Shown here: in pieces, positions 34,942 through 47,467 of the stretch
How the letters are laid out: every line of letters starts with the position of its first letter
Numbering within the stretch: the first letter of the stretch is position 1
Source: Denitrovibrio sp.
GTDB taxonomy: Bacteria; Chrysiogenota; Deferribacteres; Deferribacterales; Geovibrionaceae
Reading direction: 5' to 3'
Length of the DNA: 64,000 nucleotides
Assembly: GCA_002869145.1 (NCBI GenBank)
Contig: PKTM01000026.1
Span: forward strand, 62,001 to 126,000
The notes under the pieces: model-generated
The model's database searches: none
The model's input: the letters and a program-made list of their open reading frames with translations, nothing else
Told to the model about the DNA's origin: nothing
Translations under genes and position numbers: made by a program

Positions 34942-35376
34942 AAAATATACCTCACAGCACCATTATGCGGTTCTCTTGTGCACATTCACCAAGACAATTA
35001 TGTTTGTTTATAGGTTTAATATGGTGCTTGTGAGTAACTATGAAGAATCAATCTCTGATTGGCGTCCTGTTGAATAAGCTAATGGTATTCAAAGAATGAT
35101 GTTTAGATTTAGACAGTATTCAAAATATAAATTTGTTACATAAGGCTTTATCGGTCTAGTGCTACCATACTAAGGTTATCATTTGGTAAATTTCTTTTGA
35201 TAGAAAATAGTTGTTGTTAAGTAACAACACATTATAAACTAGTTATAAAAAAACACTTGTAGGACATCATACAATATGGTAATAGTACATATAGTTGATT
35301 ATTTAGGATATTAGCATTTAACTGGAGCGCAAATTTCCGTTTATCAGCGAAATTATTTTCTAAGTGGAGGTTGTCA
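34942..35376. other. Intergenic region upstream of the TRAP/amidohydrolase cassette
   Basis: 435 bp, AT-rich, with no supported gene. It should hold the promoter of the 35377-39155 operon and contains the operator candidate at 35263. A GTGGAGG ribosome site lies just before 35377. Confidence 0.5.
35256..35275. promoter_or_regulatory. Candidate operator for the FadR-type regulator (cassette side)
   Basis: CTTGTAGGACATCATACAAT contains TTGTA / TACAA as an inverted repeat and the 13-mer GACATCATACAAT, which recurs exactly upstream of the regulator gene (40949). It lies about 100 bp before the amidohydrolase start. Binding is inferred, not shown. Confidence 0.5.
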
Positions 35377-36258
35377 ATGTTGAAGAGTAATTACCAATTA
35401 GCCCCAGCGTGCGCCGGTCCTGATCCGCACACAAAAGTTCCAGTTCTAAAAGCGCCGAAAGGCTCTTGTGACTGCCATTCGCATATTCTGGGACCGCTTG
35501 ATAAATATCCTTATGTTGAAAACAGATCCTACACACCACCGGTTGCTTCGTATGAAGACTACACAAAAATGCTCGGAATTCTTGGTATAGACAGAGCAGT
35601 CGTTGTTCATCCATCAGTTTATGGTATAGATAACAGAGTTACTTTAGAAGCTGTCAAAAGGGGTGGGGATAACTTTAGAGGTGTTGTCGTTGTTGATGAA
35701 AACATTACACCTGACGAAATCGAGTCTATGAATGAGATCGGCATTAGGGGTGTTAGAGTAAATTTATTGTTTGACGGCGGTGTTGAAGTCTCTGTTCTGG
35801 ATAAAATAGTAAAACTCATTGAGCCATTCGGGTGGCATGTGCAGTTGCTTATAGATGTGTCTGTTTTCGAGCCTTTTGAATGTTTGATGAATCTGCCGGT
35901 TGATGTTGTTTTTGATCATATGGGGCATATGCATGTTTCTAAAGGTTTGAATAATCCCGGTTTCCGGAAGATGGTTAAGATGATTGCTGAAGGCAGGGCA
36001 TGGGCAAAGCTTTCAGGCGCATATAGAATCTCTGAATTGGACAGACATCCTTTTGAGGATACTGATATATTTGCAAAAACAATTATCGAAGCAAATGAAG
36101 ACAGAGTTGTGTGGGCAACAGACTGGCCGCATCCGAGTGTTGAAATAGATATGCAGAATGACGGTGATCTTCTTGATATATTATTAAGATGGGCTCCTGA
36201 TGAAAATCTCAGGAAAAAGATACTTGTTGATAACCCGGCTAAACTTTACGGATTTTAA
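35377..36258 (+). CDS. LigI-like amidohydrolase (2-pyrone-4,6-dicarboxylate hydrolase family)
   Basis: 293 residues from ATG 35377 (GTGGAGG upstream). Amidohydrolase TIM barrel: the HxH site is in CDCHSHILGP, then VVHPSVYG, FDHMGHM and the C-terminal Asp in WATDWPHP. These match the PDC hydrolase/LigI branch, where lactones are opened, often without a tightly bound metal. It lies 54 bp before a TRAP transporter and shares a nearly parallel sequence with the C-terminal half of the fusion at 39258. The likely role is lactone or dicarboxylate breakdown of the imported substrate; the exact substrate is not known. Confidence 0.85.
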   Translation: MLKSNYQLAPACAGPDPHTKVPVLKAPKGSCDCHSHILGPLDKYPYVENRSYTPPVASYEDYTKMLGILGIDRAVVVHPSVYGIDNRVTLEAVKRGGDNFRGVVVVDENITPDEIESMNEIGIRGVRVNLLFDGGVEVSVLDKIVKLIEPFGWHVQLLIDVSVFEPFECLMNLPVDVVFDHMGHMHVSKGLNNPGFRKMVKMIAEGRAWAKLSGAYRISELDRHPFEDTDIFAKTIIEANEDRVVWATDWPHPSVEIDMQNDGDLLDILLRWAPDENLRKKILVDNPAKLYGF

Positions 36259-36312: not shown

Positions 36313-37326
36313 ATGAAAAGAAATTTAAAATTATTTGCATCACTGGCAGTTGTATGTTTATTACTTATGGCGGCTACTGTGACTCCAGCAATGGCTGAAG
36401 CAAAAAAACTTAAGCTGGGCTTCGTTACAGCAGCAAACGAAAAAGACCCGTACTACATCGTTTCAAAAAAATATGCCGACTTAATTAACGAATACACTGA
36501 CGGACGTTACACAGTCGATTTATTCGGCAGTGCACAGCTTGGCGGTGACTCTTCAATGATAAAGAACCTGACAATGGGAACAATGGATATCGGTGTTATT
36601 ACTAATGCACCTGTAGGTTCTTTCATAAACTCTTTTATGGTACTCGATCTGCCATTCATGTTCCCGTCAGCTGATGTTGCCCATAAAGTGCTTGATGGAG
36701 AAGCCGGCCAGATGCTTCTGGAAAAACTTGATAAAATCTCTATAAAAGGTCTCGCTTTCGCAGAAGGTGGTTTCAGGCATATGATAAACAATGTCAGACC
36801 GGTCAATACTCCTGAAGATTTAAAAGGTGTAAAATACCGTGTTATGAAGACCCCTGTTTATATCGGAATGTTCAAAAGCCTCGGCGCCAATGCGGTACCA
36901 ATGCCATGGGGTGAGGTTTTCTCAGCTGTTCAGCAGAATGTTGTTGATGGACTTGAGATACCTGTTCCGGTTATATATGCTAACAAATACTTTGAGGTTA
37001 CAAAACATCTCTCACTTACAGGACACACATACTCACCGCTTGTAATGATGATGTCTTCAAGAACATGGAACAAGCTTTCAAAAGCTGATCAGGAAATATT
37101 CCAGAAAGCAGCTATTGAAGCTGCAAGATATGAGCGTAAAGAAATCGCTAAGATTATCGATGCTATTCTTGTTGATCTTAAAACTGAAGGGATGGCAATT
37201 AACGAAATCGAAAACAAGCAGCCTTTCATGGACGGCGTTAGTCCTATGTACAAGGAATTTGAAGGAAAAATAGGATATGATGTACTTAACTCTTTCCTTG
37301 AGGCAAGAGATAAATATACCAAATAA
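36313..37326 (+). CDS. dctP: TRAP transporter substrate-binding protein
   Basis: 337 residues with a signal peptide (LKLFASLAVVCLLLMAATVTPAMA). DctP/TAXI-like fold with DctP motifs: KLGFVTAANEKDPYY, GGDSSMIKNLTMGTMDIGV, the conserved Arg in VKYRVMKTPVY and NVVDGLEIPVPV. It captures a carboxylate in the periplasm and hands it to DctQM. Strong AGGAGG site. A stem-loop follows the gene, so it is probably made in excess of the membrane subunits. Confidence 0.93.
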   Translation: MKRNLKLFASLAVVCLLLMAATVTPAMAEAKKLKLGFVTAANEKDPYYIVSKKYADLINEYTDGRYTVDLFGSAQLGGDSSMIKNLTMGTMDIGVITNAPVGSFINSFMVLDLPFMFPSADVAHKVLDGEAGQMLLEKLDKISIKGLAFAEGGFRHMINNVRPVNTPEDLKGVKYRVMKTPVYIGMFKSLGANAVPMPWGEVFSAVQQNVVDGLEIPVPVIYANKYFEVTKHLSLTGHTYSPLVMMMSSRTWNKLSKADQEIFQKAAIEAARYERKEIAKIIDAILVDLKTEGMAINEIENKQPFMDGVSPMYKEFEGKIGYDVLNSFLEARDKYTK

Positions 37327-37383: not shown

Positions 37384-37866
37384 ATGAAAATTTTTAAAAC
37401 TTGGTTAGACAAGATTCTCATGGCGATCCTGGTAGCACTGGCTTTTGCTTTGATTATTATAATAGGTCTTGCAGTATTTTACAGATACGTATTAGGGGCT
37501 GCACTTTCGTGGCCTGAAGAAGTGGCAGGTATTATATTCGTATGGTACACACTTTTAGGGATTGTCGTTCTTGCAGGTACAAAATCTCATATAGCTTTTG
37601 ATTTTGTTGAAAAAAGTACGCCTCCGATAGTTGGCTATATAGTCCGTTTTATTTCCCAAGCCTCTATTCTTGTGTACGGCGGCGTTATGGTAGTTTACGG
37701 TTGGGAATATTTTCAGCTGTTTCCCGGTGAAACAACCGCAGCTTCCGGCATAAATATGGGATGGCTTAAAATTTCTATACCGGTTGCCGGTGCCTTATTG
37801 GTTATTAACATGTTTTTAAACTTAATGATTAAACCGGACAGCGATGAAAACGAGGTGCTTGTATGA
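37384..37866 (+). CDS. dctQ: TRAP transporter small permease
   Basis: 160 residues with four helices, e.g. MAILVALAFALIIIIGLAVF and FRYVLG-like YRYVLGAALSWPEEVAG, the typical DctQ motif, then IVVLAGTKSHIAFDFVE. It forms the membrane complex with DctM, whose start overlaps its end by 4 bp (ATGA type). It couples substrate uptake to a sodium or proton gradient. Confidence 0.92.
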   Translation: MKIFKTWLDKILMAILVALAFALIIIIGLAVFYRYVLGAALSWPEEVAGIIFVWYTLLGIVVLAGTKSHIAFDFVEKSTPPIVGYIVRFISQASILVYGGVMVVYGWEYFQLFPGETTAASGINMGWLKISIPVAGALLVINMFLNLMIKPDSDENEVLV

Positions 37867-39155
37867 CTTCAGGTGTAGTAGCTTTAATCCTTTTCGGCTC
37901 TTTTATTTTTCTTGTTGTTCTTGGAGTACCTATAGGGTTCGCATTGGGACTGGCCGGTGTACTCGGTCTTGTTCTTATGGATGTTACATTTATGATGTTT
38001 TCACAAACATTAATATCAGGTATAGATAATTTCGCATTACTTGCGATACCATTTTTCGTCTTGCTCGGCTCAATTTTGTCCAAAAGTCAAATGTCCAAGT
38101 CCCTGGTAGAGCTTGCCGATGAGCTGATAGGGTTTCTTCCCGGAGGCCTTGCTGTCGGAACGATCTTATCATCAATGCTTTTTGCAACTGCATCCGGTTC
38201 AGGGCCAGCCACTGTAGCATCAATCGGGTCCATAACAATACCTGAAATGGAAAAAAGAGGCTACCCCCGTTCATTTTCAATGGGTGTTGCAGCTTCCGCC
38301 GGTGCTTTGGGGCCGATAATTCCACCCAGTATCCCGCTTATCATCTACGGAGTTGTTGCAAGTGAATCTATTCTGAAACTGTTCCTTGCAGGTCTTGGAT
38401 GCGGGCTTCTGTTTGCACTTTTGATGATGATATATGCTGTAATAAGGGCTTATAGAGAAAAAATCCCAAGAAGTGGAAATCTCCCTTCTTTTAAAAGGCT
38501 TGCAAATCTTGTGTGGAATGCAAAATATGCGCTCGGTGCTCCCACTCTTGTACTTGGAGGGATTTATTCAGGCGTGTTCACTCCGACTGAGGCGGGAGCT
38601 TTAGGTTGCCTGTATGTACTTATTATCGGATTTTTTGTTCAAAGAACATTAACTTTCAAATCAGTTTATGAGTGTATTGCAGAAGGTACAAAGAACTCTG
38701 CCATGATCATGTTTGTTATAGCAAGTGCGTATCTCATGGTTTGGTTAATGGCCTCTGCACAGATACCGGCAATTGCGGCAGAAGCTATCTCAGGTATTTC
38801 TGCTAATAAAATTGTTTTCTTACTTCTGGTCAACCTACTATTTCTGTTTATAGGCTCTATCCTTGATACACCTGCAGCAATAGTTATAATTGTTCCAATA
38901 CTGGAGCCGATTGCAGTTAATTTTGGTATAGACCCTATCCATTTCGGTGCTGTTATCGTGGTCAACTTTGTTATCGGATACATTACTGCGCCTTTCGGCT
39001 ATAACCTTTTTGTTGTAAAGACTATAACTGGAAGGGGGATGGGCGAGGTCAGTTTGTCTGTATTGCCGTTCCTTGTGATATGTCTGTTCGGTCTGCTGTT
39101 AGTAACATTTATTCCGCAGATATCGCTCTTTTTTCCAGAACTGTTGATGAAGTAA
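37863..39155 (+). CDS. dctM: TRAP transporter large permease
   Basis: 430 residues, 11-12 helices, DctM family: FLVVLGVPIGFALGLAG, the segment FFVLLGSILSKSQMSK, GSGPATVASIGSITIPEMEKRGY and SAGALGPIIPPSIPLIIYG, then FTPTEAGALGCLYVL. These are family-wide transport motifs. It is the last gene of the TRAP operon and faces the fused regulator gene. Confidence 0.94.
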   Translation: MTSGVVALILFGSFIFLVVLGVPIGFALGLAGVLGLVLMDVTFMMFSQTLISGIDNFALLAIPFFVLLGSILSKSQMSKSLVELADELIGFLPGGLAVGTILSSMLFATASGSGPATVASIGSITIPEMEKRGYPRSFSMGVAASAGALGPIIPPSIPLIIYGVVASESILKLFLAGLGCGLLFALLMMIYAVIRAYREKIPRSGNLPSFKRLANLVWNAKYALGAPTLVLGGIYSGVFTPTEAGALGCLYVLIIGFFVQRTLTFKSVYECIAEGTKNSAMIMFVIASAYLMVWLMASAQIPAIAAEAISGISANKIVFLLLVNLLFLFIGSILDTPAAIVIIVPILEPIAVNFGIDPIHFGAVIVVNFVIGYITAPFGYNLFVVKTITGRGMGEVSLSVLPFLVICLFGLLLVTFIPQISLFFPELLMK

Positions 39156-39163
39156 ATAATTTA

Positions 39164-39192
39164 CTGCTCTCGGGTTTTATAGCCCGAGAGCA
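39164..39192 (+). terminator. Terminator-like stem-loop after dctM
   Basis: Perfect 10-base repeat TGCTCTCGGG / CCCGAGAGCA. No long T run follows, so termination strength is uncertain. It lies between convergent dctM and the fused regulator gene. Confidence 0.6.
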
Positions 39193-39257
39193 GGATATGA
39201 TTCTATTGTCAGTTATTTTTGAAGATAGTATTTCATTTACACGGTTCATGAGTCTTT

Positions 39258-40898
39258 TTAAACAGGATCAAACTCATAAAGTTTTTGAGGGTTATCCACT
39301 AGTATTTTGTTTCTGATCTTTTCATCCGGCTCCCAGATTGAAAGGAGATCTAAAATGTCTGCGTCACTCGGCATAGGTACATTTATATAAGGGTGAGGCC
39401 AGTCTGAGGCCCATAGTATTCTGTCCGGATTAGAATTAATAATCGCTTTTGCATACGGGATAGTATCTTCATAAGGATATTTGTTTGATGTTGTTATACG
39501 ATATGCACCTGAGACTTTTGCCCACGCCTTTCCTTCGGCAAGCATTCTGAGCAGTTTATTAAAACCGACGTGTTTTGTGCCTATAGATGTAGGCATATGC
39601 CCCATGTGATCGAACACAACCTCTACCGGTAGTTTTGCCAGTGTATCGAGGTCAGAAAACTCGGACACATCAACAAGCATCTGCAGATGCCAGCCGAACG
39701 GAGCGATCTTGTGAGCCATTTTGCGCACATCAGAAACCTCAATCCCGCTTTTATATAACAGATTTATTCTAACACCTCGAACACCGCACTCGTGCATCCG
39801 CTCCATCTCTTTTTCATCAATGTTTTCATCAACAACAACAACTCCCCTAAAGTTATCACCACCATCCCTTATAGCATCTAGGGTGGCTCTGTTGTCTGTG
39901 CCGTAGACAGAAGGCTGTACTATTACAGCTCTTTCTATGCCCAGATAGCTGAGCATCTCTTTATACTGGGTTAAAGGGGCATCAGGTGGAGTATAGGAGC
40001 GGTGAGGACTGTACGGATACTTGCTTTTAGGTCCGAATATATGTGCATGTGTATCACAGGCGCCTACCGGGACTTTAAGTTTTGGATGTTTGAAGTTCAA
40101 GTCAGCCTGAGCACATGTCGGTATATATAGATCGCCAATGAGTGTCATTCTGCTTTCTTCCCATCCCTGCAGACCCCGCAATCCAAGGTTTTCAGCTGTT
40201 CTCAGAATGGCGTACCATGCCGCCCTGCGTGATTTGTCTGGATCACCTATTCTGATAGCCTCATAGATTTTCTCATAATCTCGTATGCTTTTTCTTAATG
40301 AATTTTTATCTTGAGGCGCTGCCACATTTTTAATTTCAAGACAAGGTCTTATTCTTTGGGCAAGGAACTGCATAAATTCGCTAAAATGTGAGTTGTGTGT
40401 GGCTTCTGCAATGATCTGATGGAATTTTTCTTCTAATGAGGTAAATTCTGTTAAATTATCTTTAATGTTCCTCATCTGCTCCATGATTTTGCCAAGTTTT
40501 TCTATCTGCTCAGTAGTCCGGCGTCTTGCAGCCATGGCAGCACCACCCACTTCCATTTCAATTCGCAGTTCCATAACGCTTCTGAGACCTTCAACAGTGT
40601 CCAGTTCATTTGAATCTATCTTGAATGTCTTAAATTCAAAATCTTCGGCAACGTATGCTCCGACACCCTGTCGTGTTATCACCCATCCTTCTTGTCTGAG
40701 GCTTGCGACCGCCTCCCTTACAACATTACGGCTTACTCCGAAATCTTTGGCAAGCTGCGTTTCAGAAGGGAGTTTTGAGCCCGGAGGAAAAATCCCTTCT
40801 TTAATTTTATGTGAAATTTGTGATGTGATCTCAGCTGGCAGGCGCTTAGGACGATTTAATGGCGTAAAACCTCTTTTAGCATCATTTTTATTAACCAT
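39258..40898 (-). CDS. FadR-type GntR regulator fused to a LigI-like amidohydrolase
   Basis: 546 residues. Residues 21-85 are a GntR winged helix (GSKLPSETQLAKDFGVSRNVV); ~105-235 form an FCD ligand domain (AEATHNSHFSEFM). A linker with Met251 leads into an amidohydrolase: HxH in CDTHAHIFGP (282-286), FDHMGHM and WASDWPHP. The catalytic half is a close parallel of the enzyme at 35377. All active-site landmarks remain, so it may be both enzyme and regulator, or use the barrel as a sensor. An internal ATG (40148, Met251) could also give the enzyme alone, which hints at an origin by fusion of two adjacent genes. It converges on the TRAP operon it probably controls. Confidence 0.88.
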   Translation of the reverse strand: MVNKNDAKRGFTPLNRPKRLPAEITSQISHKIKEGIFPPGSKLPSETQLAKDFGVSRNVVREAVASLRQEGWVITRQGVGAYVAEDFEFKTFKIDSNELDTVEGLRSVMELRIEMEVGGAAMAARRRTTEQIEKLGKIMEQMRNIKDNLTEFTSLEEKFHQIIAEATHNSHFSEFMQFLAQRIRPCLEIKNVAAPQDKNSLRKSIRDYEKIYEAIRIGDPDKSRRAAWYAILRTAENLGLRGLQGWEESRMTLIGDLYIPTCAQADLNFKHPKLKVPVGACDTHAHIFGPKSKYPYSPHRSYTPPDAPLTQYKEMLSYLGIERAVIVQPSVYGTDNRATLDAIRDGGDNFRGVVVVDENIDEKEMERMHECGVRGVRINLLYKSGIEVSDVRKMAHKIAPFGWHLQMLVDVSEFSDLDTLAKLPVEVVFDHMGHMPTSIGTKHVGFNKLLRMLAEGKAWAKVSGAYRITTSNKYPYEDTIPYAKAIINSNPDRILWASDWPHPYINVPMPSDADILDLLSIWEPDEKIRNKILVDNPQKLYEFDPV

Positions 40899-40933: not shown

Positions 40934-40964
40934 GTTATCATACAACTAGACATCATACAATGTC
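40934..40964. promoter_or_regulatory. Candidate operator for the FadR-type regulator (autoregulatory side)
   Basis: Two direct copies of ATCATACAA 15 bp apart; the second sits in GACATCATACAATGTC, whose GACAT / ATGTC ends are a perfect inverted repeat. It is 36-66 bp before the regulator start. The same 13-mer is upstream of the TRAP cassette (35263). Confidence 0.5.
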
Positions 40965-41034
40965 AACAATAGCAAACCCTTTTCAGTAAGATGAATACGA
41001 AATACATACAGATATTGTCAGATTACCAGTCAGG

Positions 41035-41214
41035 TGATATTGATATTGCCAGAAATGAAGGCACATACAAAAAGACGATTACAAGGTACTCAAATCCGAT
41101 GTTGTTAATCATAGACGAATTTCCGCTTCTCAAGCCCAATGAAAATGACGCAAAGACATCTTCGAGCTTCTTCATCGTTGGCGAAAAAAATCGTCAGCTA
41201 TTTTATGCTCATAA
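41035..41214 (+). pseudogene. istB: istB remnant (IS21 family)
   Basis: About 180 bp strongly similar to the middle of the intact istB at 56245-56410: DIARNEGTYKKT and SNPMLLIIDE (Walker B) are retained. A frame shift breaks it after KPNEND, and it stops abruptly where an integrase 3' end begins. It marks an earlier IS21 insertion that later recombined. Confidence 0.75.
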
Positions 41215-41387
41215 CAAGATACGCTAAATATGTGAAAGCAGTAGAGTTTCGGCAGTCCAAAATCGTGGCATTTCTTTCCTCAGAAAAACCTATCGACAGC
41301 GAAGCTCGGAGCAGAAATGCATCCGATCATGATGCATTTTGTCAGAATGCTGTCAGAAACGAAAAAACCCTGTCATCAAATAATTGA
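41215..41387 (+). pseudogene. Tyrosine recombinase 3' fragment
   Basis: Codes RYAKYVKAVEF, including the catalytic Tyr region, through SEARSRNASDHD; the rest of the gene is missing. The reading frame diverges near the end from the copy at 46867 because of a small indel. It is joined directly to the istB remnant, a recombination scar. Confidence 0.75.
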
Positions 41388-41396
41388 TAACAGGGT
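41367..41396 (+). terminator. Rho-independent terminator of the integrase remnant
   Basis: ACCCTGT / ACAGGGT outer repeat with inner ATCAA / TTGAT pairing, followed by CCTTTTT. The same structure is in copy 2 at 47274-47303, with one mismatch. Confidence 0.75.
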
Positions 41397-41407
41397 CCTT
41401 TTTAGAA

Positions 41408-41432
41408 TGCCGAGAGAGCGACTTGAACTCTA
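41408..41432 (-). other. Attachment-site remnant from a tRNA-Leu-like 3' end, copy 1
   Basis: On the minus strand it reads GAGTTCAAGTCGCTCTCTCGGCA: a T-loop (TTCAAGT), T-stem and acceptor strand TCTCGGC with A73, as in tRNA-Leu. No 5' tRNA half is adjacent, so it is a remnant. Phages and islands often integrate at such 3' ends beside their integrase. Confidence 0.55.
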
Positions 41433-41767
41433 ATTCATATGGGAATCAGCGGGAAGTACAGGGAGCTAAAGTGAACAACAAGAATCACTTAACTCGACAT
41501 GCTATTTCCCGCATATTCCCGCTATTTCACTCAATCTGTCAGAATCCTGTCAGAATGGATTTATACGCGAAATAAGAAAAGAACGGTGCTAATTAACTGG
41601 AAGCTCGTTCTTAGCTACCTCAAAAGCAATTTAGCAAAGTATATAGACGTTATAAAAAAGCCACTGTATAAAATATTCAAAAAGTCTTATGTGATAAAAC
41701 CCATTATTATTATAGCTTTACTCGACTAATCAAAAAAGACTAAATTATGATTGACAGCATAATAGAC

Positions 41768-41781: not shown

Positions 41782-41859
41782 ATACATAAGTTACACATGT
41801 TCTCCTGTGGAATTTTTATTAAATTTTTAGATCGCAAAAGGTCTTTAGAGAGGAAAGAT

Positions 41860-42732
41860 ATGCCGATAGTTAACATTGATGGAGCTTTCGATCTTCATAT
41901 TCATACAAAACCATCCCTATTCAACAGAACTCTTAACGATATAGATATGGCAAAACATGCAGCAGAATCAGGACTGCGCGGAATCCTTGTGAAAAACCAC
42001 TTCGAATCGACAGTGGGCAGGGCAGAGCTTGCTGATTATGTTGTCGATGGGACACGTGTTTTTGGTGGACTAGTTCTGAATAGATTTGCAGGGGGAATAA
42101 ACCCTGTTGCTGTAGAAAATGCTCTGGGGCTTGGTGCAAAAGAGATATGGATGCCGACTGTTGATGCAAAACAGCACTGTGATGTTTTCGGCGGATGCGG
42201 CGGCTACTCCTATCAGAAGACAGACGCTAATGTTGTCCATGAGCCTGTCAGCGTTCTCGGAGAAGACGGCGCTCTCACTCAGGATGCGAAAGATGTTCTC
42301 ACTCTCGTGAAAGAGGCAGATGTTATCCTCGGTACAGCCCATATATCAAAAGAGGAAGTTTTTCTTCTGGCTCAGTTTGCAAAAGATATCGATTTCAAAA
42401 AGCTTCTCATAACTCACCCATATTTTGACCCGCCAAAGCTGAATATAGACGAACAGAGGGCGCTTGTTGACCTCGGTGCAACACTTGAGCTCTGCGCAGG
42501 GAACATTTATCCGATCCCTGGCACTGCAAGGCTGGATGATTATCTGGCTACTATTGAAGCTCTTGGGGTAAAAAATCTGATTATTGCAAGTGATGCAGGC
42601 CAGCCGAGAAAATCTATGCCTGCAGAAGTTATCCGTGTTTTTACCCAATGCCTTATGGAGAAGGGTGTAACTCAGGAGATGATCGACATGATGATAAAAA
42701 TTAATCCAGCCGTATTGCTTGGTTTGGAATAA
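41860..42732 (+). CDS. DUF6282-like amidohydrolase-fold protein
   Basis: 290 residues from ATG 41860 (GAGAGG upstream); the longer frame has no ribosome site. The start FDLHIHTKPS holds an HxH pair; ILVKNHFEST, VVLGTAHISKEEV, LLITHPYFDPP and IIASDAGQP supply further conserved His/Asp positions of a metal-dependent hydrolase barrel. It resembles the DUF6282 group, whose substrate is unknown. It heads an operon with a TTT transporter, so it likely acts on the imported acid. Confidence 0.75.
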   Translation: MPIVNIDGAFDLHIHTKPSLFNRTLNDIDMAKHAAESGLRGILVKNHFESTVGRAELADYVVDGTRVFGGLVLNRFAGGINPVAVENALGLGAKEIWMPTVDAKQHCDVFGGCGGYSYQKTDANVVHEPVSVLGEDGALTQDAKDVLTLVKEADVILGTAHISKEEVFLLAQFAKDIDFKKLLITHPYFDPPKLNIDEQRALVDLGATLELCAGNIYPIPGTARLDDYLATIEALGVKNLIIASDAGQPRKSMPAEVIRVFTQCLMEKGVTQEMIDMMIKINPAVLLGLE

Positions 42733-42757
42733 TTATATATCCTTAGGAGGAATTGAG

Positions 42758-43720
42758 ATGAAAAAGATTACTGCTGTTTTTATTATGGCTATTGTACTTA
42801 TAAGCTTTTCAGCTTTTGCTGCTGAGTTTCCGTCAAAGCCTGTAACACACATTATCCCTGCGAAAGCGGGCGGCGGCTTCGACCGTTCATCAAGAGTGCT
42901 GAGCCTTGGCTGGCAGGAAATACTCAGACAGCCTGTAAAATTTGACTATTCTCCGGGCGCATCCGGTGCTATCGGTTTCGGTAAGATGATGTCTAAGCCT
43001 GCTGACGGCTACACAACTATCATGACAACCATCGCAATGCACGCTATGGGTGTTAATACTGGTGCACAAAAATTTGGATGGGACGAGATAGGCTTCGTAG
43101 GAAACCTTATCACAGACCCGAACGTACTCCTTGTACATAACGATTCTCCTTATAAAACCATACAGGACTTTATTGAGGCGGGTAAAAAAGCTGAGAAACC
43201 ACTTACAATCTCAACATCTCACCCGAAAGCGGTTTCATCACTCGCTGCGAAGATTTTCATCGAGCTGACAGGAATCAATGCGAAAGTTGTTGCTTTCAGC
43301 GGTGGTTCTGCTGCGAGAAATGCACTTGCCGGGAAACAGGTTGATGCCTGCGTCGGTCCATATTTCTCATCATCCTCGCAAAAGGATTTCATTCATGCAG
43401 TAGCTTCCTTTACTAAAAAGAAGGTTTGGGACGGGCTTTGGGATGTTCCTACTCTTACAGAAGCTACAGGCAAAGAGTTTCCAGTACTTGTTGAGCCTTT
43501 TGCTTTTATGATCAGAAGAGACACTATTAAGAAGAACCCTGAAAACTATGAGAAGATGGTTGCCACTTTCAAAGAAGCGATTACTTCAGAAAAGGTAAAA
43601 GTAGCTGCTGAGAAGCAGGGGATGGCTCCTTTTATTGACTATTGGTCACCGCAGGAGTGTGATCAGTACGTTCAGGACTTTCAGGCTGTTTGGGCGAAAT
43701 ACAAGCACTTGATGGATTAA
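42758..43720 (+). CDS. tctC: TTT transporter substrate-binding protein
   Basis: 320 residues with a signal peptide (AVFIMAIVLISFSAFAA). TctC/Bug fold: FPSKPVTHIIPAKAGGGFDRSSRVL and PVKFDYSPGASGAIGFGKMM are the conserved ligand-binding loops, and GGSAARNALAGKQVDACVG the domain-2 loop. It binds a carboxylate or similar anion. AGGAGG precedes the ATG. A stem-loop follows. Confidence 0.92.
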   Translation: MKKITAVFIMAIVLISFSAFAAEFPSKPVTHIIPAKAGGGFDRSSRVLSLGWQEILRQPVKFDYSPGASGAIGFGKMMSKPADGYTTIMTTIAMHAMGVNTGAQKFGWDEIGFVGNLITDPNVLLVHNDSPYKTIQDFIEAGKKAEKPLTISTSHPKAVSSLAAKIFIELTGINAKVVAFSGGSAARNALAGKQVDACVGPYFSSSSQKDFIHAVASFTKKKVWDGLWDVPTLTEATGKEFPVLVEPFAFMIRRDTIKKNPENYEKMVATFKEAITSEKVKVAAEKQGMAPFIDYWSPQECDQYVQDFQAVWAKYKHLMD

Positions 43721-43747
43721 TACTACATAAATAAGATAGTTACAATA

Positions 43748-43774
43748 AAGCGGGGTGATCTCGTGCCCCGCCTT
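43748..43774 (+). terminator. Intra-operon stem-loop
   Basis: GCGGGG / CCCCGC with flanking AAA / TTT and trailing TTT lies between the binding-protein gene and tctB. As with the TRAP operon, it may limit membrane-subunit expression. Confidence 0.65.
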
Positions 43775-43794
43775 TCATTAACTGCGAGGCAGTC

Positions 43795-44259
43795 ATGGAC
43801 AAACAGAAAAAATCAGTCAATTATGGAGAGCTGGTTATTCCGGCACTCACAGTTTTATTTGCCGTTGCGTTCTTTATTCAGACACGCGAGGCTCCTATGG
43901 TCGCTATGAAGTGGCCTCTAATGGTCTTTATAATGCTGGCGGTCATGCTGGCACTTGTTATCTATAATTTTATCTTTGTAAGCCCAGAGACGGGAGGCAG
44001 ATCTCTTAATCTGCAAACCCTGAAAAAACCTCTGTTGATACTCATATTTCCAATCGTGTACATCTTGTCCATGAACTACTTAGGTTTTGCTCTCAGCAGT
44101 CTTATATTCTTAAACGTGATGTTCAGGCTGCTGGGTGCGAAATCTTACGTCAGAAACTTGATAGTATCTATTATTCTGGTCGGGCTCCTTCATTTTGCCC
44201 TTAATATTTTAATGCAGATGTCTTTCCCGCAGCTCGGGATTGGCATACTGAATCTTTAG
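43795..44259 (+). CDS. tctB: TTT transporter small membrane subunit
   Basis: 154 residues with four or five helices (LVIPALTVLFAVAFFI, VFIMLAVMLALVIYNFIFV, LILIFPIVYILSMNYLGF, LIVSIILVGLLHFALNIL). Sequence is weakly conserved in this family; position between tctC and tctA is the main support. It couples to TctA as a permease partner. Confidence 0.85.
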   Translation: MDKQKKSVNYGELVIPALTVLFAVAFFIQTREAPMVAMKWPLMVFIMLAVMLALVIYNFIFVSPETGGRSLNLQTLKKPLLILIFPIVYILSMNYLGFALSSLIFLNVMFRLLGAKSYVRNLIVSIILVGLLHFALNILMQMSFPQLGIGILNL

Positions 44260-44268
44260 GAGGCTGAC

Positions 44269-45777
44269 ATGGATGTTATGAGTATAGATGTCTTTTATCA
44301 GGGATTAGCGCTTCTGATGCGCCCTGAAAACCTTATGTGGATTCCTATCGGCATGTTTCTCGGTCTTATGATCGGAGCTGTGCCCGGATTTAACGATACA
44401 AACTTCCTAGCTATAGTGCTTCCATTTACAGCCTATATGAGCCCGATGAATGCAGTGGTGTTTATGATGTCCTGCTTCTGTGCTTCTCAGGCTGCGGGTT
44501 CCATACCGGCCATCCTCCTTAATATACCCGGAACCCCTTCGAATGCGCCGACCTGCCTGGAAGGATTTAAAATGACCCGTAAAGGCAAAGCGGGCTACGC
44601 CCTTGGTCTATCTCTCGGAGCTTCCACTGTGGGCGGAGTCATAACAGCTATTATAACACTTATCATCACTCCAGTTGTAGGCGTGTATGCACTCAACTTC
44701 GGGCCCGCTGAGCTTTTCATGATGGCGCTTTTCGGAATGACAGCTGTAGGTTCACTTACGGGTAAATCCCTTACGAAAGGTCTTATGTCATCTGCGCTTG
44801 GTCTTTTTGTTGCCTGCGTGGGGACAGAATTCCAGCAGGGGTATACAAGAGCCAGTTTTGGTTTTTTTGAGCTTTATGAGGGTTTTCCGCTTATTCCGGT
44901 TCTTCTCGGTGTGTTCGGCTTCAGCGAGCTTTTCAGTCTTGTAGAGCAGAAAGCGATCGTGGCAGAATCCGAAGACGGTGAGAAATCAAAGAACGGTTTT
45001 GATTCTATACTTGAGGGTGTTTATGCATCATTTAAATATAAGATGAATATCCTTCGCTCCTCACTTATTGGGCTTCTGGTGGGACTTATACCCGGCACAG
45101 GTGCTGCGATAGCCACTTGGGTCAGCTATGGTCAGGCTAAACAATGGAGTAAAACACCGGAAAAATTCGGAACAGGACACGACGAAGGTCTCGTTGCTAC
45201 TGATGCGTGCAATAATGGTGTGCCGGGCGGAGCGCTTATCCCTACAGTAACACTTGGCATCCCCGGTTCCGGTACAACACTTGTGATAATGGCTGCTCTG
45301 ATGATAAACGGCATAACACCTGGTCCAAGCTTCTTCAGTGAACATGCTGTTGAGGCGTATGCAATTCTATATTCTCTGGTGGCTGCGAACTTGTTTCTGC
45401 TGCCTGCTGGGCTTATCGTTGCCAGACTGGCAAGCAATGTGACTGTTGTTCCAAATAAATATCTTGTTCCTGTTATAGCTATATTCTGTATGATTGGCGG
45501 TTTTGCATGGCGCCAGATGCCTTTTGATATGTATCTTGTGGTTATTTTTGGTGTCTTTGGTGCACTCTTGTCTAAATATGGATATTCTGTTCCGGCTTTT
45601 TTGCTGGCTATGCTTCTTGGTCCTCTTGCAGAGCGTAACTTCTATTGGGCAATGGAAATCAACGGAGTTGAGTCTTTCATGCGTCCAATCGCTCTGGTTA
45701 TCTTTATAGCCACAATATGTGTTCTTATTCTTCCCGGTATTCTTCAGAAAATGGCGAATAAAGGAAAAAACGGATAG
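44269..45777 (+). CDS. tctA: TTT transporter large membrane subunit
   Basis: 502 residues, about 12 helices. TctA motifs: MIGAVPGFNDTNFLAIVLPF, GSIPAILLNIPGTPSNAPT, GLLVGLIPGTGAAIATWVSYG and NNGVPGGALIPTVTLGIPGSG. The duplicated PGxxG(T) loops are typical of the TctA fold. It forms the channel with TctB. An AGGAGG-like site precedes the ATG, 9 bp after tctB. Confidence 0.94.
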   Translation: MDVMSIDVFYQGLALLMRPENLMWIPIGMFLGLMIGAVPGFNDTNFLAIVLPFTAYMSPMNAVVFMMSCFCASQAAGSIPAILLNIPGTPSNAPTCLEGFKMTRKGKAGYALGLSLGASTVGGVITAIITLIITPVVGVYALNFGPAELFMMALFGMTAVGSLTGKSLTKGLMSSALGLFVACVGTEFQQGYTRASFGFFELYEGFPLIPVLLGVFGFSELFSLVEQKAIVAESEDGEKSKNGFDSILEGVYASFKYKMNILRSSLIGLLVGLIPGTGAAIATWVSYGQAKQWSKTPEKFGTGHDEGLVATDACNNGVPGGALIPTVTLGIPGSGTTLVIMAALMINGITPGPSFFSEHAVEAYAILYSLVAANLFLLPAGLIVARLASNVTVVPNKYLVPVIAIFCMIGGFAWRQMPFDMYLVVIFGVFGALLSKYGYSVPAFLLAMLLGPLAERNFYWAMEINGVESFMRPIALVIFIATICVLILPGILQKMANKGKNG

Positions 45778-45910
45778 ATCTTAATGCTGCCTGCGCTGGC
45801 TAGTACAGATGCGTGCAGCTCTCTTCAAAATATATTGTCTTGATAAGAAGTGCTTTTTTTGGCAGAATATTCAAAAAAGATATTTCAGACCTTAAGAGTG
45901 TAAAACAATC

Positions 45911-46642
45911 ATGGCTATAAAAGACCTCAACGTACAAAATGAAAAACCTCTGTATATACAGCTTGTTGAGCTTATTAAAGAGCGCATAGCGGATAATATC
46001 TGGAGCATCGGGATGATGATTCCTTCTGAAAATGAGCTCGCAAGAGAGCTTGATGTATCCGCTGGCACAGTAAAAAAGGCTCTGAATGTGTGTGTGCAGG
46101 ACGGAGTACTCTTTCGCAGACAGGGTAAGGGGACTTTTGTAGCCAGCCCTGATTTTTCCAAGAGCTTTAACAGATTCTTTAGGTTCGCCTCAAAAGATGG
46201 TGAGCAGAATATCCCTGCAACTGAAACGCTTGTTTTGGAAGTTATCGAAGCACCATCTGAGATTGCTGAAAAGCTTAAAATTACAACAGGCGAGAAGGTA
46301 ATCAAGTATCGCAGAACAAGAACCCTTAATGGAATAACTTTCGTAGTAGAAGACATATATCTTATTTATGAAACTTTTAAAGGGTTTGAAAACTATAACC
46401 TTAGCGGTAAATTTCTTTATCCTATTTTTCATTCTGACTTCGGTACACCTATCCTCTGGGCAAAAGAAGACATTCACCCTGATGTGGCAGATAAAAACAC
46501 TGCTGAGCTTTTAGGGATCGAGCTTAAAGCACCTGTAATGTGTATCGAGCGTATCGCATATACACATAAAGATCAGCCGGTGGAGGTTCGTTTCAGTATC
46601 GGCCGCGGTGATACTTTCAGGTACAGTATTATTGTCCGTTAA
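45911..46642 (+). CDS. GntR-family regulator, HutC/UTRA type
   Basis: 243 residues. The N-terminal winged helix (IPSENELARELDVSAGTVKKALN) and FRRQGKGTFVA wing match GntR regulators; the C-terminal half is a UTRA ligand domain ending VRFSIGRGDTFRYSI. It is the last gene of the TTT cassette and probably represses it, with the cassette's substrate as inducer. The start has only a weak ribosome site. Confidence 0.9.
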   Translation: MAIKDLNVQNEKPLYIQLVELIKERIADNIWSIGMMIPSENELARELDVSAGTVKKALNVCVQDGVLFRRQGKGTFVASPDFSKSFNRFFRFASKDGEQNIPATETLVLEVIEAPSEIAEKLKITTGEKVIKYRRTRTLNGITFVVEDIYLIYETFKGFENYNLSGKFLYPIFHSDFGTPILWAKEDIHPDVADKNTAELLGIELKAPVMCIERIAYTHKDQPVEVRFSIGRGDTFRYSIIVR

Positions 46643-46866: not shown

Positions 46867-47340
46867 GCTCTTAAAAACCAGAAGCAGCATACTTATCTGA
46901 AGTCGGAATTCATCTTCGTGAACCAATATGGAGAGCCGTGGAAATCATCAGAACATATCATGCGTCAGGTTTGGAAACCTACACTAAAGAAGCTTGGCAT
47001 AGCTTTTAGGATTATTTATCAGTGCAGACATACTCACGCAAGCCTGTCTATTCTGGCAGGTGACAACCTTGCTCACATAGCTGAGCGTATGGGCCACAAA
47101 AACGTTGGTACAGTCATTACAAGATACGCAAAGTATGTGAAAGCAGTAGAGTTTCAGCAGCCCAAAATCGGGGCATTTCTTTCCTCAGAAAAACCTATCG
47201 ACAGCGAAGCTCGGAGCAGAAATGCATCCGATCATGATGCATTTTGTCAGAATGCTGTCAGAAACGAAAAAAGACCCCGTCATCAAACAATTGATAACAG
47301 GGTCCTTTTTAAAATGCCGAGAGAGAGACTTGAACTCTAA
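46867..47340 (+). pseudogene. Tyrosine recombinase, C-terminal fragment
   Basis: In frame from ALKNQKQHTYLKSEFIFVNQYG on, with the catalytic core at CRHTHASLSILAGDN (Arg-His) and MGHKNVGTVITRYAKYV (His, then Tyr). An in-frame stop at 46864 and no similar sequence upstream show the N-terminal half is lost. The final residues (MPRERLEL) are coded by the att-like site, the usual overlap of integrase gene and tRNA target. It is probably inactive. Confidence 0.8.
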
Positions 47341-47467
47341 TTCATATGGGAATCAGCGGGAAGTACAGGGAGCTAAAGTGAACAACAATAATCACTTAAC
47401 TCCATATGCTATTTCCCGCATATTCCCGCTATTTCACTCAATCTGTCAGAATCCTGTCAGAATGGAT
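47119..47467 (+). repeat. Direct repeat, copy 2 (integrase 3' end, terminator, att-like site)
   Basis: Second copy of the 41214-41560 repeat, with about 350 bp, a few substitutions and a 2-bp indel. It closes the 5.9 kb segment holding the TTT cassette and opens the AT-rich island. Confidence 0.9.
47315..47339 (-). other. Attachment-site remnant from a tRNA-Leu-like 3' end, copy 2
   Basis: On the minus strand: GAGTTCAAGTCTCTCTCTCGGCA. Same features as copy 1 (41408), with one base changed. No intact tRNA adjoins it in this window. Confidence 0.55.

Follow-up and report, generated by a model that had tools for sequence, protein, structure and literature searches.

In the trigger enzymes PutA and BirA, a single chain acts both as a gene repressor and as the catalyst of a step in the same pathway, and in the MocR/PdxR regulators a GntR winged helix is followed by an aminotransferase-fold domain that is mainly a sensor, such that binding of a ligand to this enzyme fold changes DNA binding. 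In the usual architecture of the FadR subfamily, the chain stops after the effector domain, without an enzyme; regulators of this type commonly possess an aspartate and three histidines that bind metal, and FadR itself, which lacks this metal set, still binds its ligand. The operator boxes of the subfamily are given as TKGT and ACMA, usually with 3 nt between GT and AC (PMC4494728). DhdR of Achromobacter denitrificans, which we take to be the DhdR of the PDB, is described as the repressor of its own operon, which includes a D-2-hydroxyglutarate dehydrogenase; it protects the sequence GTTATCAGATAAC and, among the compounds tested, only D-2-hydroxyglutarate is reported to release it (PMC8651671).

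The gene discussed here lies in a 64,000-nucleotide stretch of a Denitrovibrio genome (hereinafter, the window) and encodes a FadR-type GntR regulator and a LigI-type amidohydrolase in one chain. Among solved structures, DhdR is the closest to the regulator half, both by sequence (1.6e-31) and by fold, at about 32% identity; the chain of that structure is labelled 'pyruvate dehydrogenase complex repressor', the name DhdR coming from the PDB titles, one of which (9vkn) gives L-2-hydroxyglutarate as the inducer. The two proteins are also alike in an ARRR segment, in the similar layout of a 13-bp operator (a candidate one for the fusion) and in an operon with a hydroxy-acid dehydrogenase that is autoregulated, probably so for the fusion, but DhdR has no fused enzyme and keeps the metal-type D-H-H-H set. 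For the enzyme half, the closest solved structure is that of LigI, the 2-pyrone-4,6-dicarboxylate lactonase (TM 0.84 on the target, 32% identity), with which, as with 4mup, 2ffi and 4i6k, this half shares the HxH motif and the aspartate at LigI D248; unlike LigI, the fusion carries a regulator, and its relatives are linked to TRAP or MFS transporter and hydroxy-acid dehydrogenase genes. What the fusion shares with MocR/PdxR is confined to an enzyme fold that follows a GntR winged helix: its second domain belongs to Amidohydro_2 and not to the fold-type I aminotransferases, an FCD domain lies in between, and matches of the window protein to MocR profiles stop at about residue 91, being essentially restricted to its N-terminal part. 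The folds and families of PutA and BirA are unrelated to those of the fusion. The first-pass annotation of the window knew of no well-described example of such a protein, and we found no description of a GntR-amidohydrolase fusion among the open-access papers surveyed, a scope outside which most subscription papers fall. Both halves are members of known families; what is new is their combination, together with the conserved operator and the alteration of the FCD.

The fusion gene and its neighbourhood

The gene runs from ATG to stop in a single frame of 546 codons, with no stop codon or frameshift between the halves, and its GntR, FCD and Amidohydro_2 matches are all far beyond the Pfam cut-offs (Table 1), which bears out the initial description of a FadR-type domain and a LigI-like hydrolase in one chain. 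The succession of winged helix (PF00392) and FCD (PF07729) is that of the FadR subfamily, the difference being that a LigI-type domain, that is, an Amidohydro_2 fold with the HxH and Asp of LigI, continues the chain beyond its usual end. The AlphaFold model (mean pLDDT 79.5, pTM 0.59) is poor at the linker (residues 241-259), so that the placement of the domains in it is of low confidence.

Table 1. Features of the fusion locus (positions in the window)
Feature	Positions	Strand	Remarks
Fusion gene	39258..40898	-	546 aa; FadR-type GntR regulator + LigI-type amidohydrolase; single open frame, Pfam domains, 24 co-linear relatives
GntR winged helix-turn-helix	40650..40832	-	residues 23-83; PF00392, 7e-20
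FCD domain	40215..40577	-	residues 108-228; PF07729, 7e-24; metal-type D-H-H-H set absent (E156 H160 Y208 A230)
Junction peptide	40131..40187	-	residues 238-256, LGLRGLQGWEESRMTLIGD; probable relic of hydrolase ribosome-binding site and start; pLDDT <50 at 241-259
Met251 codon	40146..40148	-	invariant 25/25; probable ancestral hydrolase start
Amidohydro_2 domain	39270..40058	-	residues 281-543, 5e-48; H284 H286 H431 D499; Pfam, alignment to 4d8l
Promoter-like TTGACA-18-TATGAT of fusion gene	40937..40966	-	11/12
Candidate fusion-gene operator	40934..40946	.	GTTATCATACAAC; 11/13 to DhdR operator; 40935-40945 one mismatch from TTGTNNNACAA; overlaps -10
Second repeat	40949..40961	.	GACATCATACAAT; identical to 13-mer in hydrolase promoter (35263-35275)
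Candidate operator of hydrolase-TRAP operon	35257..35275	.	TTGTAGGACATCATACAAT
Separate LigI-type amidohydrolase	35377..36258	+	ATG behind GGAGG; listed ORF 35371-36258 from upstream TTG; 57% identical to fused domain
TRAP solute receptor DctP	36313..37326	+	PF03480; first fold match sugar-acid receptor 7bbr
TRAP small membrane subunit, DctQ-like	37384..37866	+	position and length only
TRAP large membrane subunit DctM	37863..39155	+	79-80% to L072/L074 DctM; matches L035/L036 DctM, which are PF06808
Terminator-like hairpin	39164..39193	.	between convergent fusion and hydrolase-TRAP units

Three TRAP transporter genes sit between the fusion and a separate LigI-type hydrolase some 3 kb away, the fusion gene being convergent to the hydrolase-TRAP unit. 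The first fold matches of DctP are sugar-acid and other TRAP receptors and imply no single ligand. No Amidohydro_2 gene other than those for the fusion and the separate enzyme was found in the genome, and the parallel that had been drawn between the two is supported in that the identity spans fusion residues 257-543 and the HxH and terminal Asp (H284, H286 and D499 in the fusion) are intact in both. Across the wider-flank loci, a separate hydrolase is linked to the fusion at 13 of 24 (the window, L036-L045, L076 and L077); at the other 11 no second hydrolase was found in the available flanks, those of L030 being cut by its contig. A TRAP or MFS transporter is present at 22 of 24 loci, and 12 of 24 carry a gene like those of FAD-linked hydroxy-acid dehydrogenases (YdiJ-like at seven, GlcD-like at five); the probes detected no linked dehydrogenase at 12 of 24, and no hydroxy-acid dehydrogenase was found at the window locus. 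Of the seven YdiJ-like proteins, four (L040, L075, L076, L077) pass the NCBIfam cut-off for the D-2-hydroxyglutarate dehydrogenase YdiJ and three miss it, ydiJ being described as a D-2-hydroxyglutarate dehydrogenase gene (PMC9504171); in Pseudomonas, YdiJ may be near the fusion by chance.

Several other features of this genome deserve mention. Its best GlcD-like gene lies away from the locus. At G000:C4:3757-7007, likewise elsewhere in the genome, a FadR-type regulator is near a GlcD-like gene with 44% identity to the GlcD of the Desulfobacterales class, and the region is a candidate hydroxy-acid oxidation locus. Beside the fusion locus, a direct repeat of about 350 bases (41209-41560 and 47114-47467, 96% identical), which includes the 3'-terminal part of an ORF (46918-47340) that is integrase-like by eye, flanks a DUF6282-TctC-TctB/TctA-like-GntR/UTRA block. 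This second uptake operon (41797-46642) is led by a DUF6282 protein (41797-42732), has a TctC by profile and TctB/TctA-like genes by eye and possesses its own GntR/UTRA regulator (45911-46642); the repeat-flanked block looks like an integrated cassette.

Spread of the fusion and origin of its junction

The same domain order was sought in other genomes and found at 24 further loci, all with the identical join, in Alphaproteobacteria, Gammaproteobacteria and the class that holds the Desulfobacterales; with the window, this makes 25 co-linear fusions. The first-pass annotation had named the absence of the fusion from all relatives as a ground for refutation, and such absence does not hold: the fusion was not found in 49 of the 50 genomes of the phylum that were searched, Denitrovibrio alone having it, but it is present elsewhere. 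A scan of the contigs of 84,980 species with the junction peptides LRGLQGWE and ESRMTLIG yielded 18 loci, namely 16 one-frame fusions, one locus cut by Ns at the junction (L046) and one spurious match (L047), the last two being left out of all counts; the 16 first-round loci were thus partly selected for the junction, and its conservation among them is biased accordingly. The eight later loci come from full-length searches and were not chosen by the junction peptide: two new fusions in the family of P. protegens (5 of 298 genomes matched), two in the class of Tistrella (8 of 385, five others having the hydrolase only), three in the class of the Desulfobacterales MAG (4 of 291) and one in the order of Alloalcanivorax (2 of 145), with none among the three matching genomes of 295 in the family of Sulfitobacter. 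These counts are lower bounds, the large searches having scored three, four or at most ten candidates per genome. A tblastn search of plasmids gave seven records with at least 80% coverage. The one followed (H1) is a co-linear copy on Tistrella mobilis pTM3, with 60.8% identity over 98%; the matches of H2-H6 are split in two across some 2.6 kb, and that of H28 is a single piece at 24% identity. In viral contigs, none of 79 pattern matches was confirmed as a fusion.

Many of the relatives are near-copies (three from Tistrella, three from the Alcanivorax group, six from Pseudomonas, four from the Desulfobacterales class), and we estimate that about seven lineages are independent. Stops were flagged inside the match for the genomes of L034, L043 and L045; as read there, the frames are open and each match extends to the chain end. 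The window protein is closest to the fusions of the Desulfobacterales class (69-70% overall, 60-61% in the regulator half and 76-77% in the enzyme half), the regulator halves of all the fusions ranging from 36 to 61% identity to that of the window. Its DctP is 67-72% identical to those of L072-L074, and its DctM is similarly close to those of L072 and L074 (Table 1), none having been matched in L073. Since the fusion, DctP and DctM are all closest to their counterparts in this class, the module was probably acquired together, and we infer that the fusion reached the Denitrovibrio genome by transfer.

How the join itself came about is suggested by two split relatives, L059 and L060, in which a FadR-type gene and a hydrolase lie unfused on one strand, the hydrolase ATG overlapping the regulator stop by 4 nt in L059 and following it by 2 nt in L060; their regulators are 33% identical to that of the fusion, and in L060 a frame that is DctP-like, as judged by eye rather than by profile, comes after the hydrolase. 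The fusion would have arisen by the in-frame joining of a regulator gene to a hydrolase gene that overlapped or abutted it. By eye, the peptide GWEESR-M of the fusions coincides with the ribosome-binding site and start of the split hydrolases, so Met251 is probably the ancestral hydrolase start. A tree of the hydrolase domain, built without four of the 13 linked separate hydrolases (L037, L038, L039, L077), is compatible with a single origin of the fusion, albeit weakly (48/45, 40% of bootstrap trees).

Conservation of the junction peptide is strong and extends to the eight later loci, where it shows Q/N/H variation. The internal ATG that had been pointed out at Met251 is thus real and invariant in all 25 fusions; the further suggestion that the enzyme is also made alone finds no codon or Shine-Dalgarno-like signal above background. 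The DNA around Met251 is strikingly alike in the window and Tistrella, but among 11 divergent rows the 9-codon windows that cover it have z between -0.6 and 2.5, and those just upstream between -1.3 and 1, compared with a gene-wide mean of 1.4 (sd 2.0), so that the invariance is at the protein level, the codons being conserved no more than at the gene's own level. Shine-Dalgarno-like pairing at Met251, set against synonymous recodings, was below p = 0.05 in none of the 25 fusions (lowest p 0.165). A short product is nevertheless possible, because the pairing in the window (-8.3 kcal/mol) falls within the range of five true or presumed starts in the same analysis (-5.6 to -10.5).

Candidate operators

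The promoters of the fusion gene and the hydrolase in the window contain the repeated pattern TTGTATGAT/ATCATACAA, and in the relatives the site resolves to TTGTNNNACAA; an 18-base palindrome considered first matched only some relatives and was replaced by TTGTNNNACAA after these had been seen. TTGTNNNACAA precedes the fusion gene or the linked hydrolase/transporter operon, is exact in 15 of the 16 first-round relatives and has one mismatch in L031. The 304,678 bases of the 16 relatives and the window contain 16 exact copies, 15 of them in 24 upstream regions where 0.025 are expected; exact copies are found in 15 of the 22 upstream regions outside the window (shuffles average 0.09, largest 2) and in one of 749 other 300-base tiles. 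At six Pseudomonas loci, the exact site stands before a hydrolase-MFS-fusion run and not directly before the fusion gene. The eight later loci, several of which are kin to the first set, served as a held-out test: each has exactly one exact TTGTNNNACAA within its 4.5-4.7 kb, upstream of the fusion, and in seven wider later loci there are nine sites, seven of them at the fusion promoter. In L075, the site is inside the longest frame, yet ahead of the likely ATG.

The layout of TTGTNNNACAA in the relatives fits the palindrome consensus given for the FadR subfamily (PMC4494728), the window having near-matches only. In its two upstream regions the exact site is absent, and near-matches are found before both units: copies with one mismatch are at 40935 and 35257, and also at 35133. 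With about 1.8 such copies expected in 24 regions, one isolated copy of the kind seen in the window carries little weight by itself; TTGTATGAT with one mismatch is uninformative (33 in the window vs 30.8 expected). The 13-mer GACATCATACAAT occurs twice in the window, once per promoter, against an expected 0.01, both it and the pattern TTGTANGAYRWC having been chosen after the sites were seen. Over the whole upstream region of the fusion, promoter-like matches are no more numerous than in shuffled sequence. The candidate operator overlaps the -10 element, as expected for autorepression.

Likeness to the DhdR operator was scanned at 12 loci (159,411 bases), the window being looked at separately. 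There are six matches of at least 11/13, all before the regulator gene, namely GTTGTCAGACAAC (11/13) at four alphaproteobacterial fusions and GTTATCAGACAAC (12/13) ahead of the split regulators of L059 and L060; L031 scores 10/13, and L030 and four gammaproteobacterial regions 7-9/13. The hydrolase promoter of the window reaches 10/13 at best, at a spot other than its candidate operator. The fusion very probably binds DNA and represses transcription.

Enzyme, sensor domain and possible modes of control

The residues H284, H286, Y302, R377, N379, H404, H431, H434, R467 and D499 are invariant in the 25 fusions, which accordingly all keep the H-x-H, the DH-x-GH histidines and the terminal Asp; D499 aligns with LigI D248, the residue mutated in 4di8, 4di9 and 4dia. 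It is highly probable from this pattern that the fused lactonase is catalytically active. LigI R130 and Y156, which we take to be substrate-contact positions, are K383 and L408 in the fusion (hand-counted on the alignment), and enzymes of the LigI type act on several lactones; that the substrate is a hydroxy-acid lactone is a proposition about evenly balanced. An assignment to the 4-sulfomuconolactone hydrolases (NF042924) was rejected, the cut-off being 500 bits and the scores 223.3 for the fusion and 239.5 for the separate enzyme. The genomes of L030 and L033 gave no match at E<=1e-30 other than the fusion, so that a decoy role of the fused enzyme is unlikely there; if the pathway needs a hydrolase, the fused form does the work in these two, L030 being a MAG that may lack genes.

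The hypothesis that we favour, with modest confidence, is that of a bifunctional, autoregulated repressor with a working lactonase, in a pathway for uptake and oxidation of a hydroxy acid or its lactone, the product being the more likely inducer. The FadR/DhdR-type half would bind operators resembling TTGTNNNACAA upstream of its own gene and of the hydrolase/transporter operon; a hydroxy-acid lactone or its acid would be imported by the TRAP or MFS transporter, with 2-hydroxyglutarate lactone as the leading candidate; the LigI-type half would open the lactone in the same pathway; and the released hydroxy acid, which the FAD-linked 2-hydroxy-acid dehydrogenase, where encoded, would oxidise, would lift repression, the protein making its own inducer. 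The fused enzyme may make the inducer because DhdR, which the regulator half and the operator resemble, is induced by a 2-hydroxy acid; by this analogy, the identity of product and inducer is a tentative proposal, held at somewhat less than even confidence. Several observations count against this scenario: DhdR is only about 32% identical, the sites in the window are inexact and no dehydrogenase is found at its locus, the hydrolase operator there is not DhdR-like, the gammaproteobacterial and L030 sites are poorly DhdR-like, half of the loci show no linked dehydrogenase by the probes used, three of the seven YdiJ-like proteins miss the cut-off, and the D-H-H-H set is gone in all 25 fusions.

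This last observation bears on the sensor. At the aligned FCD positions, the set is present in DhdR, in both split regulators and in 19 of 20 control regulators, the controls being regulator-half matches from the window's genome and its relatives (20 of 21 candidate loci, L004 having given none), many of them alike and thus non-independent. An ARRR segment (124-127) is found in all 25 fusions and in DhdR, but in none of the 20 controls and neither split regulator. Because the D-H-H-H set has been lost and the ARRR pattern differs from that of the controls, the sensor pocket has probably changed in the fused lineage, and its ligand may be bound otherwise than in DhdR, given that all 25 fusions are without the set. 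There are two possibilities: the FCD of the fusions has a different mode of ligand binding, or the enzyme has taken over sensing. The latter possibility, in which the lactonase domain is the sensor, its active-site substrate or product alters DNA binding as in MocR and the FCD is only a dimerisation module, would accommodate both the loss of the set and the conservation of the junction peptide in loci not selected by it. However, R106, E110, R112 and the ARRR segment of the FCD are invariant, that is, the domain has not been free to drift, and some regulators without the metal set, such as FadR, still bind ligands; we consider this reading unlikely, if a serious contender.

The converse arrangement, in which induction is by the lactone and the fused lactonase breaks this inducer down, setting a threshold and shutting the response off, had been raised at the outset. 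It agrees with the retention of the active-site residues throughout and with the linkage of a second hydrolase at 13 of 24 loci, where the bulk flux need not use the fused one. Nevertheless, it is a hydroxy acid that releases DhdR, the closest solved regulator, the word 'lactone' does not occur in the main text of PMC8651671, and at the 11 loci where no second hydrolase was found the fused enzyme would have to be both pathway and shut-off; the suggestion is accordingly not favoured over its rival, the DhdR-like regulator and operator pointing to the hydroxy-acid product, and appears rather improbable. Comparably doubtful is the view that the fusion merely couples the amounts of two proteins whose halves act independently. 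Genes that overlap by 4 nt or lie 2 nt apart in the split relatives make fusion a small step, and the linker is predicted with low confidence, but the fusion and its junction peptide have been kept across deep divergence of the regulator half, and the FCD change is found in every fusion and in neither split relative. Finally, the idea that the gene is decaying or is an artefact of assembly or annotation, for which the presence of the fusion in one of 50 genomes of the phylum could be cited, is so improbable as to be dismissed, the join recurring at 24 other loci with catalytic residues and operators kept and the stops flagged in three relatives leaving the frames as read unbroken.

Returning to the favoured bifunctional repressor, a bolder version would make these proteins a class of enzyme-coupled repressors, in which the chain makes its own inducer, the FCD metal site has been lost and the lactonase active site or the interface senses turnover; we regard this as speculative and on balance unlikely.

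Some lone hydrolases are annotated as 'GntR family transcriptional regulator' (H24, H37 and H40; checked for H24), including ones on Sphingobium plasmids (L029 4034-4927, H37, H40), a label possibly carried over from a fused relative, which makes the fusion a possible source of mislabelled lone hydrolases. In biological terms, the locus suggests a route for using hydroxy-acid lactones. If the two halves communicate, the fusion would be a natural one-protein switch that physically joins a metabolic reaction to a gene response, and with a conserved operator, an intact active site and split relatives at hand, single-residue mutants can put this question to the test.
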